Shown one piece after another: positions 12,138 through 62,090 of a stretch of DNA of 62,090 nt. The notes beneath the pieces were generated by a model. It ran no database searches, was not told the origin of the DNA, and saw only the letters and a program-made list of their open reading frames with translations. The stretch covers positions 1-62,090 of IMG/VR virus record IMGVR_UViG_3300021138_000028; one strand, 5' to 3'. The translations under genes were made by a program, and so were the position numbers. Each line of letters starts with the position of its first letter. The stretch's first letter is position 1. Origin of the DNA: a virus.

Positions 12138-12773
12138 ATGGCTCTATATGACAACTTACCGGACGAGACCCCGGCACAGAAGCGACCAAAGGGATTGACC
12201 GACCAAGAATGGATGCTTGTTGTTGAGTATTCGGCTTGCAAAAATAAGCGTCGTGCGCTAGATAAGGCGGGGTATCCCAAACACGCTTTGCATATTTTAG
12301 AACAACCTCACATTCGGATTGCTATTGCCGCTGAGGTCAAGAGCCAGATTTCTAGGGCTCGAAAGACGGCTGATGAAGTCATTAAGGCTTGCGAAGACGT
12401 GGTGTTCTCGGACATTGAGGATTTGATCTTTGTCGACGCTGAGGGCAAGATTCGATTGAAGCCATTGGACGAGATTCCTGACGATAAGAAGGCATTGATC
12501 CAAGGTTTGATTATTCGCAGGGATGGTTCGATTGACCTAAAGATCCCAGAGAAAGCGGTGATGATGCGGCTACTGATGACGGCACATGGGCTGCTTACGG
12601 ATCGTGTTGAACACGTTACCGAAGATAATGTGCTCCATAAGATGTATGCCGTCGCTATGGCTCGGAATGGGATCAGTGAATCGGTTGCAGGTTCGATCAT
12701 TATTGATGTTCAGAGGCAGATTGAACTTATGCCTCGAGCAACCAAGAATATGACACCAAAGGAAGATGAGTAA
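12138..12773 (+). CDS. terS: Terminase small subunit
   Basis: 211 aa. It fits the Terminase_2-type small subunit. An N-terminal helix-turn-helix region (EWMLVVEYSACKNKRRALDKAGYPK, read in two parts) has the typical A-x-x-x-AGY element. A long helical section then leads to DIEDLIFVDAEGKIRLKPL and the L-K-P-L-D-E-I-P segment seen in this family. The small subunit recognises packaging sites in phage DNA and regulates the large subunit. It overlaps the next gene by eight bases, as expected for terS-terL. Confidence 0.8.
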   Translation: MALYDNLPDETPAQKRPKGLTDQEWMLVVEYSACKNKRRALDKAGYPKHALHILEQPHIRIAIAAEVKSQISRARKTADEVIKACEDVVFSDIEDLIFVDAEGKIRLKPLDEIPDDKKALIQGLIIRRDGSIDLKIPEKAVMMRLLMTAHGLLTDRVEHVTEDNVLHKMYAVAMARNGISESVAGSIIIDVQRQIELMPRATKNMTPKEDE

Positions 12774-13566
12774 GACCAACTTACCTATTCGATCCATGCG
12801 GGAAACCGTTGCGATCAAGAATATCACGAAGGATGCTATGGCGGCATTCCGATCAGCCCAATCTCCATCGGAGCGTCCGATGTGGCCTGATGAGTACATG
12901 GGCGATGATCCAGAATCAGCATTTAGGTTCGTAACTGAATGCTGGTGGACGGACAATGAAGCAGACAGGAAGATTGAACTGATTCCTAAGCGGGAATTTG
13001 TTTATGACTTCTGTGTGGAATGGGTGAATGCCTATCGACTTCGACAACCTATGATCTGCGAGAAGTCTCGACGTATCACGATTTCGTGGATATGCCGGGG
13101 ACTTGAAACTTGGGTCATGGGAAAGCAACGTGGATCGTGGATTATCATTGACCAAACTCATAAGAACGCTGCCGAACATCTGTGGCGAATTGATTTCTCG
13201 CTGAATCAGTTAAAGAACAGGAAGCCTGAGTACAACATTGAGTTCGAAACTCGTGGATCGGTTTTGATAAAGGAGCCGACGAACATCATTCTCGGAAATG
13301 GTTCGATGATTACGCAAGGTCACCAAGATGCAGGATCAGCACAAGGTAAAGGTAAGACGGGTGTTACACTTGAAGAGGTTTCAAAGTATGCGAACCCTAG
13401 TGAGTTTTGGGGACAAGCATTGATCGTTACTCAAGGTTCTGGTGAAGGGTCTGGTGGTTGGGTCTGTGGCATTGCCAATGCTTCTCCCAACGCTGACTGG
13501 CTCAAGATCAAGCATAACATGAGGGCTAGAGCCTTCCTTGGGATAGATGATAAGGATTGGATCTAA
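12766..13566 (+). CDS. Terminase large subunit, ATPase part (split terL)
   Basis: 266 aa covering the ATPase half of a phage large terminase. A P-loop-like element CEKSRRITISW lies near residues 97-107, with an Arg/Lys-rich loop in place of a classic GKT as in many terminases. The Walker B with catalytic Glu is GVTLEEVS near residues 198-205. The coupling motif region is GIANASPNADW. The frame ends at TAA 13564-13566, overlapping the ATG of the nuclease gene (TAATG). The usual single protein is 450-600 aa; the two parts add to 556 aa. Confidence 0.85.
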   Translation: MSKTNLPIRSMRETVAIKNITKDAMAAFRSAQSPSERPMWPDEYMGDDPESAFRFVTECWWTDNEADRKIELIPKREFVYDFCVEWVNAYRLRQPMICEKSRRITISWICRGLETWVMGKQRGSWIIIDQTHKNAAEHLWRIDFSLNQLKNRKPEYNIEFETRGSVLIKEPTNIILGNGSMITQGHQDAGSAQGKGKTGVTLEEVSKYANPSEFWGQALIVTQGSGEGSGGWVCGIANASPNADWLKIKHNMRARAFLGIDDKDWI

Positions 13567-14438
13567 TGGCGCATCCTGGTCATCCAGTTAAGGGTACCGA
13601 TCTTGCCGATGGGACTCGATATGTGGCTATTCATTTCTCTGCCGATTCGACCAAAGGGCAGGAATGGGAGCAAAAGAAAGCTCGTGGTATTCCCGAAAGA
13701 TCGTGGAAACGTGAAATGGGGATGCACGATGATGTCTATGAAGGAGAACCCGTATTCTCCGATTACTCGGACGTTAGGCATTGTCCTTTCAGTATTCGTG
13801 AGACAGGTATTCCGATCTTTCCCAACTCGGTCTATATCGGTGGTTGGGATAATGGGCTCACTCCTGCCTTTACGCTACTTCAAATTACGCCACTATTCCA
13901 AGTCCAGTGTATTTTGGAGGTTACGTCGGGTGGTGATGATCCGATGGAAACGTTTGCGCCAAAGGTTCTCAATGCTATCGCTAGAAGAATCCCCGGCGCA
14001 TGGGACGAGGTTTACCATATTGGTGATCCGTCGATCTGGAACAGGACTGCAACGACGGGTGATAGTCCTGGACTATTAGCCAAGCGGAAATTTGGGATCA
14101 ACATTCGACGGGCAAGTAACGTTTGGGGCGTCAGACAGTCTGCCGTGACATGGCTTTTGACCGATCAGATTGATCCGAAGACTGAACGATTTATTCTTGA
14201 TGCCAAACATTGTCCAATTTTGAGAATTGGTTTCCAAGGCGCATATCAATTTGAAATTTCGCCTCGTGGAGATACGATTGGACCGGGGCGTATTCTTATG
14301 GAACCATTGAAAAATGGCTACTCACACGTACATGACGGGCTCCAAGCAGCAGCACAAGCGGCTAGAAAGTTCTGCGAGGGCAAATTAGCTCTCGGGATGG
14401 GCCTTCATCATGATACAATGCCAAAACGATGGCACTAA
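13566..14438 (+). CDS. Terminase large subunit, nuclease part (split terL)
   Basis: 290 aa from ATG 13566 (TTG 13557 is an alternative). It has the RNase H-like nuclease layout of terminases: first acidic residue in GGWDNGLTPAF (~93), second in HIGDPSIW (~153), third in SHVHDGLQAAAQ (~256). This domain cuts the concatemer at the start and end of packaging. A stop at 13551-13553 in this frame and the absence of a slippery heptamer argue against ribosomal frameshifting. Termination-reinitiation giving two polypeptides is more likely. Confidence 0.85.
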   Translation: MAHPGHPVKGTDLADGTRYVAIHFSADSTKGQEWEQKKARGIPERSWKREMGMHDDVYEGEPVFSDYSDVRHCPFSIRETGIPIFPNSVYIGGWDNGLTPAFTLLQITPLFQVQCILEVTSGGDDPMETFAPKVLNAIARRIPGAWDEVYHIGDPSIWNRTATTGDSPGLLAKRKFGINIRRASNVWGVRQSAVTWLLTDQIDPKTERFILDAKHCPILRIGFQGAYQFEISPRGDTIGPGRILMEPLKNGYSHVHDGLQAAAQAARKFCEGKLALGMGLHHDTMPKRWH

Positions 14439-15373
14439 TTGACCAAAAAGTTCCTCAAGACATCGTAGATAGAGCGATTGCGAAAGCTCGCAACGTATTT
14501 ACGTGTCCTCATTGTGGCGCACCAAAAGGACAGCAATGTCGAAACGTCGGGTTAGACGATATTCATGATGTTCGGATGCCAAAAGGGATTGGATTTGCCG
14601 ATTTCCTTGACCTTGAAGCTAATTCTCCCAAGCTAGAGCAGATTGCACCTATGCTATTCGCTAAGAGGCTTGAAACGGTTAGGGTTCCCAAGCAGATTAC
14701 TCGTGGAGATATTGATTACAAGACTGCATCTGAGTCCGTAAGGGTTTTGGATGGTCGAATTCTTGTTGAAATGCTTCCTTCTGCGAAGCGATCTATTTTG
14801 ATTCCAGAATCAGTGGAGAGTAAACTAAGACCTCACCTTGGAGTCGTGTTGCAGTCGATGGAATACGCGACCCCGCGATGCGGAACTTACGTTTATCCTC
14901 CCAATCCGGGAACGATTGTGATTGTCAGGAGAACGGACGGTACTTGGATTACTGATGCTTACATGGGTGGCTATCAACCTCAAAATGAGGTTCGAGTTTA
15001 CGGTGTATATGGTGAGTTTCGGGGTCATCCTCAGATTTATGACTGGTGGGATTCTGTTCTTGCATCATATAATGAAGATATGGCTGCATGGGTACCCTAT
15101 GGGGATAAGATCCTCTTTCGACGTGATGCAAGTTTTGAAACAAGCGAAGGTGGGATTTATCTCCCTAATGGCTCACACCGTAGAACGGCAGAAGCAACTG
15201 TTGTTGCTGTCGGGCCGCTGGAAATGGATGTGAAGGTTGGCGATCGTGTTTGCTATGATCCATTCCATATTGAGCAGGTTGGCATTGAAGTCGACGGTGA
15301 AGTAGACATTGATCTTTTGATCGGTAGCCAACTTTCGATCAACTATGTGATCCCTGAGAAGGTGGTGGCATGA
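14429..15373 (+). CDS. Zinc-finger protein with two GroES-like domains
   Basis: 314 aa. Residues 26-49 hold C-P-H-C ... C ... H (Cys26, Cys29, Cys37, His46), a short zinc finger like those at the N-terminus of some phage proteins. Residues ~222-309 match GroES/Cpn10 closely: PYGDKILFRRD, then SEGGIYLPNGS (the mobile-loop region), then EATVVAVGPLE, VKVGDRVCYDP and a closing hydrophobic strand. Residues ~105-175 look like a second, more diverged GroES fold (VLDGRILVEMLPSAKRSILIP ... LGVVLQS ... GTIVIVRR). The protein might help host GroEL fold capsid proteins, as T4 gp31 does, or be a virion component. It overlaps terL and is translationally coupled to the next gene. Confidence 0.7.
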   Translation: MALIDQKVPQDIVDRAIAKARNVFTCPHCGAPKGQQCRNVGLDDIHDVRMPKGIGFADFLDLEANSPKLEQIAPMLFAKRLETVRVPKQITRGDIDYKTASESVRVLDGRILVEMLPSAKRSILIPESVESKLRPHLGVVLQSMEYATPRCGTYVYPPNPGTIVIVRRTDGTWITDAYMGGYQPQNEVRVYGVYGEFRGHPQIYDWWDSVLASYNEDMAAWVPYGDKILFRRDASFETSEGGIYLPNGSHRRTAEATVVAVGPLEMDVKVGDRVCYDPFHIEQVGIEVDGEVDIDLLIGSQLSINYVIPEKVVA

Positions 15374-15713: not shown

Positions 15714-17180
15714 ATGGCATTAGTTGAACTCTCAGACGACATGAAGGGCAAGATCGGAAGGAAACTTCTGATGTATGTCGACGCAGGGCTCAACGCTATG
15801 GGCAGAATGCCTCAATGGTGGCTTGATGTTGAAAGGCAATACCGGAATGAAAATCCTGGCTTGAACCAAGGGCCTGATGGACAGAATAAGGGATACGATG
15901 AATTCCATATACCTTTGACTCAACCAAGGCTTGATATGCTTACGGCTCAAGTCACCACCGTTATTGGCAAGCAGAACCCGTACATGACGGACATGACCGA
16001 TCCAGAAGCTATCAGTGAACCCAAACAGCAATTGGTTCACTCGATATGGAAGGATGCTGGATTTGAAACCAAGATCCGTGATGCGGCAACAATTGTAGGA
16101 TGTACTGATGTTGCGTTCTATCGGCTATGCCCGAATTATGCCCAACGTGGCGCGGTAGACCTTGATGTTATTCACCCTGACTCGATGATCGTCTACCCTG
16201 CTTTGCCGAAAGGAATTCAAGCAGCGACTTGTGTTGGTCATAGGCTTGAAATGCGTCGATACTTAATTGAGTCGATGCAGGATGGAAAGACCTACTATAA
16301 AGGTGATCCTCCTACAACTTCATCTCAAGATGAGCATGATGCTGACCGTGAGCAAATGCACACTGGCGCAAATCTTGGTGATCTTGCTCCTGATGATGCT
16401 ACGGAACTTTGCGAGATTTGGCCTTTGGTCGTTCGGCTTGACCTAAAGCATATTGAAGATCCTTATACCAAGGAAAGAAACGAACGACTTTACCAAGCGA
16501 CGTTGGATTATAAGTCTGGTCGGCTCCTTCGACTTGAAGAGTATGACTTCGACTATATTTGGTATTTCAGGTCGCAGTACATTGGCTCACCACGCTATTT
16601 CTATTCTGGACAGTCAGTAGGTAGGAACCTTTATCCTGTTCAGGATATGTATAACTCCTTGTGGTCTGGATTCTTTGCTGGTGCCATGCAAGCGGCCTCG
16701 GGTGGTCCGGTAATTGGAGAAGGATTAACTTCTGGTGAGAAGTATCAGAAGTTTGGAATGACGACGGTTATTGAGTCTGATTCCCCTGTGACTCCGTGGC
16801 AAGGTTCAGTTCATTTTGACGGACAACCTTTCCCCCGTATGATTGCTTCTTGTGAAGAGATAGCAGATAAGATTGCTCGTATCTCTCAGAACACTCAGGG
16901 AGCGCAAGCACAAGGATCAACGACAGCTACGGAACAGTCGATCATCGCGGCTGGTGTTGCTGTTGGTATCGAACAGTTTATCGCTCGATTCTCTCAAGAC
17001 TTTCCTGCTATGGCGGCATTGACTTGCCAGATAGCCGCATCGGATTTTGAAGGGTTCTCTCAGAGGTATGGTCAGGATATTGTGATTCCTGATGATCTTG
17101 GAGGACCAGATTTAACCAACTTAGTTGGAAGCAACGTGGACGTATCACCTAACATCGTGGAGGCTCCAATTGGACAATAA
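15714..17180 (+). CDS. Portal protein
   Basis: 488 aa. The portal forms the dodecameric ring through which DNA enters and leaves the head. Supporting features are position after terminase and before scaffold and capsid genes, usual length, and family-like segments: PQWWLDVERQYRNENPG at the N-terminus, a wing/stem region with RLDMLTAQVTTVIGKQNPYM, and YNSLWSGFFAGAMQAASGGPVIGEG with a long acidic helix before GAQAQGSTTATEQSI. It ends NIVEAPIGQ. The helical crown normally found after this point seems to lie in the next reading frame (17170-17700). Confidence 0.8.
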   Translation: MALVELSDDMKGKIGRKLLMYVDAGLNAMGRMPQWWLDVERQYRNENPGLNQGPDGQNKGYDEFHIPLTQPRLDMLTAQVTTVIGKQNPYMTDMTDPEAISEPKQQLVHSIWKDAGFETKIRDAATIVGCTDVAFYRLCPNYAQRGAVDLDVIHPDSMIVYPALPKGIQAATCVGHRLEMRRYLIESMQDGKTYYKGDPPTTSSQDEHDADREQMHTGANLGDLAPDDATELCEIWPLVVRLDLKHIEDPYTKERNERLYQATLDYKSGRLLRLEEYDFDYIWYFRSQYIGSPRYFYSGQSVGRNLYPVQDMYNSLWSGFFAGAMQAASGGPVIGEGLTSGEKYQKFGMTTVIESDSPVTPWQGSVHFDGQPFPRMIASCEEIADKIARISQNTQGAQAQGSTTATEQSIIAAGVAVGIEQFIARFSQDFPAMAALTCQIAASDFEGFSQRYGQDIVIPDDLGGPDLTNLVGSNVDVSPNIVEAPIGQ

Positions 17181-17700
17181 CACTCCTGCTCCGATTGAGC
17201 AAGCGTCAAGAACACTGTCCTTGCAAAAGACAGACCTATTGACTCATGTGAATTGGGAACCGACAGGTAAGAGCCCTGGTAATACGCCACAAGCCAAGTT
17301 GCAAGCGGCACAAATGTTCTTGCAGATGTTGGCTAATCCGTCGATTGCTCAATATATTAACCTACCTGCCCTGCTTACGATCATCCTAAAGGATGGTCCG
17401 TTGCAGAATGCTACCAATGTGTTGAAGTCTCAGCAAGAGGTTCAACAAATGGCGCAACAGCAACAGCAAGCGCAAATGGCTCAAATGCAAGCGCAACAAG
17501 GACCACCTAATGACCAATCTCAGCCGACAACAGCACCAGCTATTGATTCAGGGGCAGTTCCCGGACCTCCAGCGTCTCAAGGAGTTCCTGATGGGACCGG
17601 AATGGGAAGTATGTCAGGCGTACCTAATGCACCACCTATCAATAGCGGAATCCCGATGCCTGGATCTGGACCCGATTTCCCAGGCGTCATCCATCGCTAG
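17170..17700 (+). CDS. Portal C-terminal-like protein (split portal tail)
   Basis: 176 aa from TTG 17170, six bases after a GGAGG site and overlapping the portal stop by 11 bases. The first ~90 residues (KLQAAQMFLQMLANPSIAQY ... NLPALLTIILKD) resemble the helical C-terminal part of portal proteins. The rest is Gln-rich (QQEVQQMAQQQQQ) and then Pro/Gly-rich and probably disordered. It may be a separate subunit-like tail of the portal. Its last 191 bases are shared with the next gene in another frame. Confidence 0.65.
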   Translation: MDNNTPAPIEQASRTLSLQKTDLLTHVNWEPTGKSPGNTPQAKLQAAQMFLQMLANPSIAQYINLPALLTIILKDGPLQNATNVLKSQQEVQQMAQQQQQAQMAQMQAQQGPPNDQSQPTTAPAIDSGAVPGPPASQGVPDGTGMGSMSGVPNAPPINSGIPMPGSGPDFPGVIHR

Positions 17701-51615: not shown

Positions 51616-51750
51616 ATGCAGATTTATAAACAACTTCAAGGGCATAGTTGCCCGTCGTCAATATCATCAACCGGGGCTAGGACAGCGGATACTCGTCCGT
51701 GGCACCACCACGTCCGAACCTCGGTTCATGATTCAAGGGTGGGAATATGA
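51616..51750 (+). CDS. Possible 44-aa protein
   Basis: An open frame with ATG 51616 (GTG 51601 alternative) whose TGA overlaps the ATG of the truncated methyltransferase (ATGA). [21 protein letters not shown], then HHH-rich. It fills an otherwise empty 163-bp gap. Ribosome site is weak. It could be noncoding. Confidence 0.4.
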
Positions 51751-51941
51751 CCACCAAGCCAAGACTACTTGATTTGTTTTGCTGTGCTGGTGGATGCGGC
51801 ATGGGTTATCATCGTGCAGGATTTGAGGTTGTGGGGGTGGACATTAACCCTCAGCCTAGATACCCGTTTGAGTTTCATCAAGGGGATGCACTTGAATATA
51901 TTGGTAAGCAATTACTAGAGATTTTGGAGATTCCCGAATGA
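51747..51941 (+). CDS. Truncated DNA cytosine-5 methyltransferase remnant
   Basis: 64 aa. [21 protein letters not shown] is a full S-adenosylmethionine-binding motif I and [10 protein letters not shown] is motif II of C5-type methyltransferases, with [10 protein letters not shown] as motif III. The frame then ends before the catalytic P-C motif IV and everything after it. A functional enzyme needs ~200 aa or more, so this cannot methylate DNA alone. It ends in ATGA overlap with the primase-helicase gene, suggesting it persists as a translation leader or SAM-binding remnant. Confidence 0.7.
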
Positions 51942-61710: not shown

Positions 61711-62090
61711 TCTTCGTCTCCTTTTTCGGATGCTGCCTGAGTCCCAAAAATAGCGGTGTCTCTCTTGGCGAACAGTTCAATGTAAAGACCATACTCTTCG
61801 ATTTGTGCCTCCGTGTAACCTTCTTTCTGCCCAATATCCTTGTATCGTTTCTGCCATGTGCTAATCCTATGACAATGGCATCCGATTTGGATATAACCAT
61901 GCTTGCAGTGAGTCAATGAATGGCGAGTGCCTAAAATGTGAAGTGGGGGTAATTCCCAAGCATTGCCACAGACCCGAGCATCGCCGTAGACCTGAGCATT
62001 GCCATAGACCCAAGCATCACCACAGACCCGAGCGTTGTCACGGACCTCAGCATTGTCACGGACCTCAGCATCGCCGTAGACCCAAGCATT
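61707..62090 (-). CDS. Hexapeptide-repeat protein, C-terminal part
   Basis: This is the end of the gene that begins at 477 and crosses base 1. Six or more hexapeptide units (VYGNAQVYGDARVCGNAW) are followed by a folded C-terminus: LPPLHILGTRHSLTHCKHGYIQIGCHCHRIS (read in parts) and KEGYTEAQIEEYGLYIELFAKR. This conserved end, with His/Cys residues that could bind metal, is typical of phage hexapeptide-repeat proteins. The 28 codons in 62007-62090 repeat those at 84-1. Confidence 0.8.
   Translation of the reverse strand, partial: NAWVYGDAEVRDNAEVRDNARVCGDAWVYGNAQVYGDARVCGNAWELPPLHILGTRHSLTHCKHGYIQIGCHCHRISTWQKRYKDIGQKEGYTEAQIEEYGLYIELFAKRDTAIFGTQAASEKGDEE
61953..62090. repeat. 18-bp tandem repeat (right end) and 84-bp terminal overlap
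   Basis: The same 18-bp units as at 1-342, in the same phase. 62007-62090 is identical to 1-84. The stretch 61987-62083 also equals 215-311 (97 bp), so the closing point lies inside a repeat and the true number of units is uncertain. Confidence 0.9.

Follow-up and report, generated by a model that had tools for sequence, protein, structure and literature searches.

The large terminase subunit (TerL) is the usual marker gene of tailed phages, in which it is treated as one two-domain protein. According to two reports, most Arthrobacter cluster AY phages have a two-ORF terminase, with ATPase and nuclease in consecutive overlapping genes (PMC11920828; PMC12820723); BillyTP (PP978841) and BlueShadow belong to this cluster. 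In the Parabacteroides phage phiPDS1, the large terminase domains lie in two coding sequences, and the authors suggest a codon-table or an assembly issue (PMC10773633). In Jug phages, terL is reported to be interrupted by group I introns, whose splicing joins the pieces (PMC12363816). In the literature searched, which mostly left out subscription journals, we found no description of a TerL split after motif III or of a split TerL with reversed gene order.

Here, we analysed the whole stretch of 62,090 nt that makes up the viral record IMGVR_UViG_3300021138_000028 (hereafter, the window). With a probability of about 0.86, its large terminase consists of two polypeptides, produced from two adjacent, translationally coupled genes and assembling into the packaging motor.

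The terminase locus

Reading of the ORFs bore out the coordinates, the frames and the junction that the preliminary description had given for a TerL encoded by two genes. The ATPase gene (ORF1) spans 12766..13566 on the plus strand, encodes 266 aa and stops shortly after motif III. The nuclease gene (ORF2), on the same strand, runs from the ATG at 13566 to 14438 and encodes 290 aa. The two genes meet in a TAATG junction (13564..13568, plus strand), in which the TAA at 13564-13566 overlaps the ATG at 13566-13568 by one base, with ORF2 in the -1 register. A Shine-Dalgarno-like AAGGA (13552..13556, plus strand) is placed 9 nt upstream of the ATG. In the frame of ORF2, the last stop before this ATG is the TAA at 13551-13553, so that the two frames overlap by 13 nt (13554-13566). 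When joined, the two halves align colinearly with single-gene TerLs.

The terminase small subunit gene (12138..12773, plus strand; phrog_51, E 1.6e-10) overlaps the ATPase gene by 8 nt. Downstream, on the same strand, a zinc-finger and GroES-like gene (14429..15373; Pfam Cpn10, E 1.2e-12; phrog_3188, E 1.5e-9) stands between TerL and the portal gene. On the basis of ORF reading, a similar gene lies downstream of TerL in four relatives (L013, L095, L101, and L102).

Farther away in the record, a 64-aa ORF (51747-51941) resembles by eye a DNA cytosine methyltransferase, over its initial part only, and is possibly truncated. The two record ends (1-60 and 62031-62090) hold similar short repeats like GTCACGGACCTCAGCATT; the assembly may have ended within a repeat.

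A base gained or lost during sequencing or assembly, the true TerL gene being one ORF, would explain why a one-base shift nearly unites the two frames and why single ORFs run colinearly through the junction point in L013 and L095. A comparison of relatives across the junction had been proposed in the preliminary description, which considered an indel unlikely. The sister contig IMGVR_UViG_3300021133_000036, ~99.5% identical to the window over 17.4 kb (84 substitutions and 56 gap columns), has the identical TAATG junction and no difference at all within 12766-14438. Moreover, there are no homopolymer runs of four or more bases within 13481-13600, and other relatives are split with other geometries. 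An artefact is thus scarcely credible, barring a systematic error common to both assemblies. As the pair is invariant in the TerL locus, it is uninformative on selection acting on both ORFs. With the junction recurring in a contig that was assembled separately, and with two genes in many relatives, the two-gene arrangement is beyond chance, and two separately translated halves, as already proposed, are the best reading.

Position of the cut

For each half, an AlphaFold2 structure model was generated from an alignment of 27 relatives. The ORF1 model (mean pLDDT 85) matched the ATPase of T4 gp17 (2o0j) with Z 17.2 and rmsd 3.0 over 196 aligned residues; against full-length gp17 (3cpe), it reached Z 16.7, model residues 34-258 aligning with gp17 residues 99-307. 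The only family match obtained for either half was that of ORF1 to phrog_2 (positions 272-409, E 5.3e-5). Pfam and NCBIfam gave no match for either half, phmmer of the halves against PDB sequences gave nothing credible, and a PF03354 search across the window's own record found no match.

The textbook Walker A is GxxxxGK[ST], and a deviant Walker A is usual for TerLs. The Walker A-like segment of ORF1, EKSRRITISW (residues 99-108; 13060..13089, plus strand), lacks the glycines of this pattern; its KSR is invariant in 27/27 aligned ATPase halves. It is followed on the same strand by a Walker B-like VTLEE (residues 200-204; 13363..13377), whose E204 is invariant in the ATPase-half alignment, and by motif III, IANASPN (residues 236-242; 13471..13491). 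Fold match, phrog_2 match and motifs identify ORF1 as the P-loop core of a packaging ATPase, with Walker B and motif III.

The ORF2 model (mean pLDDT 86) matched the D6E TerL (5oe8) with Z 19.4 and rmsd 2.6 over 176 aligned residues, and T4 gp17 (3cpe) with Z 14.2, model residues 61-277 aligning with gp17 residues 361-562. Near its start, ORF2 carries HFSAD (13632..13646, plus strand), the local form of a class motif, H-Y-S-A-D-x-x-K-D, that is near-invariant in the 27 aligned nuclease halves. Three acidic residues follow on the plus strand: D95 in GWDNG (13848..13850), invariant in the nuclease-half alignment, and D154 in GDPS (14025..14027) and D257 in HVHDG (14334..14336), each at least 90% conserved. 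Together with the D6E match, these residues identify ORF2 as carrying an RNase H-type nuclease. In a tblastn search, ORF2 matched TerLs of 11 phage records over their nuclease half, with 25-30% identity.

The two halves match gp17 residues 99-307 and 361-562, respectively; thus, gp17 residues ~308-360, which form the second ATPase subdomain (lid) and the linker, have their counterpart in the first ~60 residues of ORF2. On these models, the cut falls inside the ATPase domain, after motif III, and not at the ATPase/nuclease border, and ~60 residues of the lid region are carried by the nuclease protein. The preliminary description assigned the ATPase motifs to ORF1 and the nuclease acidic residues to ORF2, which holds for all of them, as the alignments show; to this picture it must be added that the rest of the ATPase domain is in ORF2. 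ATPase and nuclease are not encoded as one polypeptide here, unlike in a conventional TerL: the window has two ORFs, and relatives have separate genes.

Split TerLs among viral contigs

A first scan of genome contigs with a two-row nuclease alignment found no loci. The last scan of viral contigs used patterns from an eight-row nuclease alignment, one of which was H[YF]S[AC]D[PES]xK[DG]. A total of 142 rows (141 loci and the window) were classified as unsplit (93), split (40), cut by the contig end (8) or uncertain (1; L135, with a nuclease ORF and no visible ATPase ORF within its short locus). The 41 split or probable rows, mostly from uncultured viral contigs, formed 27 clusters at 80% identity. 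A motif-based scan selects for the class, so these counts are not a frequency. In an earlier scan without the class motif, 1/80 loci was split (L060) and 7/80 were cut off at the contig end. The term uncommon, used in the preliminary description, calls for qualification: the motif-free scan gave one split locus, the motif-based one a whole class.

The class motif was carried by 41/41 split rows vs 7/93 unsplit ones, and by all the split loci retrieved in motif-free scans (L060, L096, L097, L101, and L102). Where the loci were read through, ATPase ORFs end shortly past motif III and nuclease ORFs begin ahead of HYSADPxKD, with two exceptions: the nuclease ORF of L131 has no ATG, GTG or TTG before the class motif, and the ATPase ORF of L158 extends into other sequence. 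Among the five loci with a phrog_2 match, the coverage of this family is complementary, 250-413 for the ATPase ORFs and 420-607 for the nuclease ORFs. L093 is cut by the contig end ahead of the junction and is uninformative. The scoring model for ATPase ORFs (A8) holds many of the same rows, making those scores circular. An earlier model built on seven close members (A6) found a separate ATPase ORF in 38/39 other split loci, missing L145, although some of these matches reached only 8-46 bits and 4/38 loci are A6 rows themselves.

The spacing between the halves ranges from a 40-nt overlap to a 2,160-nt gap, and in 5/28 mapped loci (L145, L148, L151, L153, and L154) the nuclease gene comes first. 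With this order, no cis process can fuse the halves. The nuclease gene is seen upstream of the ATPase gene in L145-L149 and L151-L154, and the ORFs of L145, so arranged, share 4 nt.

The gaps could be read as introns removed by splicing from a single TerL transcript, in the manner described for the terL of Jug phages, split by group I introns (PMC12363816), with the window as a degenerate case. Nevertheless, Rfam at the gathering score gave no match in the loci of the 17 relatives scanned; the halves of the window overlap, leaving nothing to splice; and a reversed gene order cannot be spliced in cis. We regard splicing as exceedingly improbable.

A tblastn search of 50,697 phage records with five nuclease halves (window, L148, L133, L143, and L134) yielded no more than weak or partial matches. 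Eleven TerL records selected for inspection, plus Altadena, have one TerL gene each. PHROGs includes short families annotated "terminase large subunit" that match one half only (phrog_5653, phrog_10250, phrog_7579, and phrog_5989); it is therefore probable that stand-alone halves had already entered protein clusters, unremarked.

Relatives of the window

The nearest distinct relatives have one gene: for the nuclease and ATPase halves, respectively, identity to the window is 56% and 37% in L013 (571 aa), and 53% and 37% in L095 (544 aa). In other relatives, which share 35-57% identity, the split falls at the same protein position. The halves overlap by 1 nt in L097, as in the window, and by 40 nt in L096; in L102 they are separated by an in-frame TGA and then a 12-nt gap, and in L101 by an 853-nt gap that holds a 301-aa ORF on the opposite strand. 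A young fission at most, our first reading after L013 and L095, was dropped once L097, L101, and L102 were found to be split.

The three closest split junctions (window, L096, and L097) are all in the -1 register, which frameshifting would also give. Programmed -1 frameshifting within 13554-13566 could yield a fused product, either instead of the two halves or in addition to them, and all three loci would require a shift of this sign. The overlap available for it is just 13 nt, and no slippery heptamer of the form X XXY YYZ occurs in 13480-13570, as the preliminary description had noted for the vicinity of the junction. Furthermore, frameshifting is unable to unite the halves of L101, L060, L125, L132, L134, and L156, with gaps of 853-2160 nt, or those of the reversed loci. 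Overall, we consider frameshifting unlikely. The ATPase tail of L096, RRLLGME, resembles the ARxxLG of relatives; this likeness may be due to chance, because these bases, read in the other frame, also encode the nuclease head, which is conserved.

L101 and L102 both come from one Armatimonadetes MAG. In Armatimonadota genomes, the nuclease profile matched in 29/291, mostly within longer single open frames. Among the strong matches, one genome (G099, locus L164) has two TerL genes 124 nt apart, and another (G125, locus L165) has an ORF for the nuclease alone, a search of 3.8 kb at this locus having revealed no ATPase ORF. An Armatimonadota host for the phage of the window is a guess.

Three further loci showed peculiar features. 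In L060 (822-2111), 1.29 kb with three small ORFs lies between the ATPase and nuclease genes, and the first of these ORFs is zinc peptidase-like by eye (HECIH), yet it has no Pfam match. L105 (3962-5821) has a nuclease gene with an intein-like insert immediately ahead of its final acidic motif (Hint_2, E 4e-9; Intein_splicing, E 4.8e-8). L167 (2-1414), from Armatimonadota, encodes a TerL of another family, with one in-frame stop after the motif III-like STPYGKANAFYRLW.

The portal gene of the window also looks split, into 15714-17180 (488 aa) and 17125-17700 in the +1 frame, and its C-terminal piece matches the portal-type phrog_449 near the C end of the family. The portal is likewise split in the matching stretch of the sister contig, whereas L095 has both parts in one frame; thus, the lineage may tolerate breaks in morphogenesis genes generally. 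The portal used as bait retrieved only the sister contig, and its tblastn search against phages found nothing. Given the split portal, the TerL split could be a recent break without lasting role, in a phage population that is decaying or hyper-tolerant. Against this, the window and its sister contig differ in the N part of the portal at 10 synonymous and 0 non-synonymous sites, the two TerL halves retain every motif, and the split is common to relatives at 35-57% identity and to many clusters. A recent break appears very unlikely: the split TerL is a stable arrangement common to many uncultured relatives, and not a broken gene.

Probable fission and fusion history

A phylogenetic tree was inferred from 33 rows with both halves and 200 bootstrap trees, in which L144 is a long branch; it was rooted on L126 by choice, so the direction of change depends on this root. 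The split/unsplit state changed at least four times in all 200 bootstrap trees, and the single ORFs L013/L095, L108, and L130 were nested among split rows. Constraining the local split rows as one clade was rejected (p-AU 3.8e-48), as was constraining all the split rows (p-AU 9e-5), the constrained groups having been defined on inspection of the tree.

One old fission followed by three re-fusions takes four changes, and repeated fission at the same residue needs more. This suggests that the single-gene relatives L013/L095, L108, and L130 are, most simply, re-fusions, and that the split is probably old in this lineage.

Discussion

The two-polypeptide reading implies a series of steps. One message would carry the small subunit, ATPase, nuclease and GroES-like genes. 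The ribosome would end the ATPase chain at the TAA (13564-13566) and re-start at the overlapping ATG (13566), helped by the AAGGA. The first product would be the ATPase core (266 aa), and the second a protein (290 aa) with the lid/linker segment and the DNA-cutting nuclease; the two chains may fold separately and then assemble together and at the portal, with the lid acting in trans on the ATP site. Because closure of this site depends on the lid segment in gp17-like motors, the ATPase half is expected to be poorly active alone. The single-gene state of the nearest distinct relatives, L013 and L095, is a counterpoint to the two-polypeptide reading.

A broader reading, which we advance only tentatively and hold to be rather doubtful, is that a two-subunit motor characterises a whole class of tailed phages, both large and old. 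In this class, the lid would be supplied in trans by the nuclease protein, the fission would lie within the ATPase domain, the reverse gene order would be tolerated, and at least three re-fusions would have occurred. If so, ATP hydrolysis would be tied to nuclease docking, and the ring could contain ATPase and nuclease chains in variable proportions, or in proportions that shift between packaging and cutting.

Length filters and annotation would overlook or miscount a class of two-gene TerLs whose cut lies within the ATPase domain, and annotation may label half of such a TerL as hypothetical. Furthermore, the coupling of ATP hydrolysis, lid closure and nuclease activity in packaging motors has long been debated. 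A natural cut between the catalytic core and the lid would offer a system for testing it, with two separately purifiable pieces and L013 and L095 as natural single-chain controls.

Comparison with known systems

The TerL of the window resembles the canonical single-gene TerLs (T4 gp17, D6E, HK97, and phrog_2) in its ATPase and RNase H folds, in motif order, in the colinearity of the joined halves and in adjoining the terminase small subunit gene. Unlike them, it has two genes, cut between positions equivalent to gp17 residues 307 and 361.

The Jug phages likewise have a terL in pieces, joined by intron splicing, but the coding pieces of the window overlap. In phiPDS1, the halves measure 337 and 148 aa and the disruption falls at the start of the nuclease core, unlike in the window. 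The halves of BillyTP measure 359 aa (ATPase) and 198 aa (nuclease), vs 266 and 290 aa in the window. By eye, its ATPase ORF reaches just before the nuclease core and its nuclease lacks the HYSADPxKD head, which places the cut ~100 residues later. A cut of the cluster AY type comes after the lid and just before the nuclease core, whereas in the window ~60 aa precede the nuclease core. Two-ORF TerLs are therefore already in print, and the cut after motif III differs from those described.
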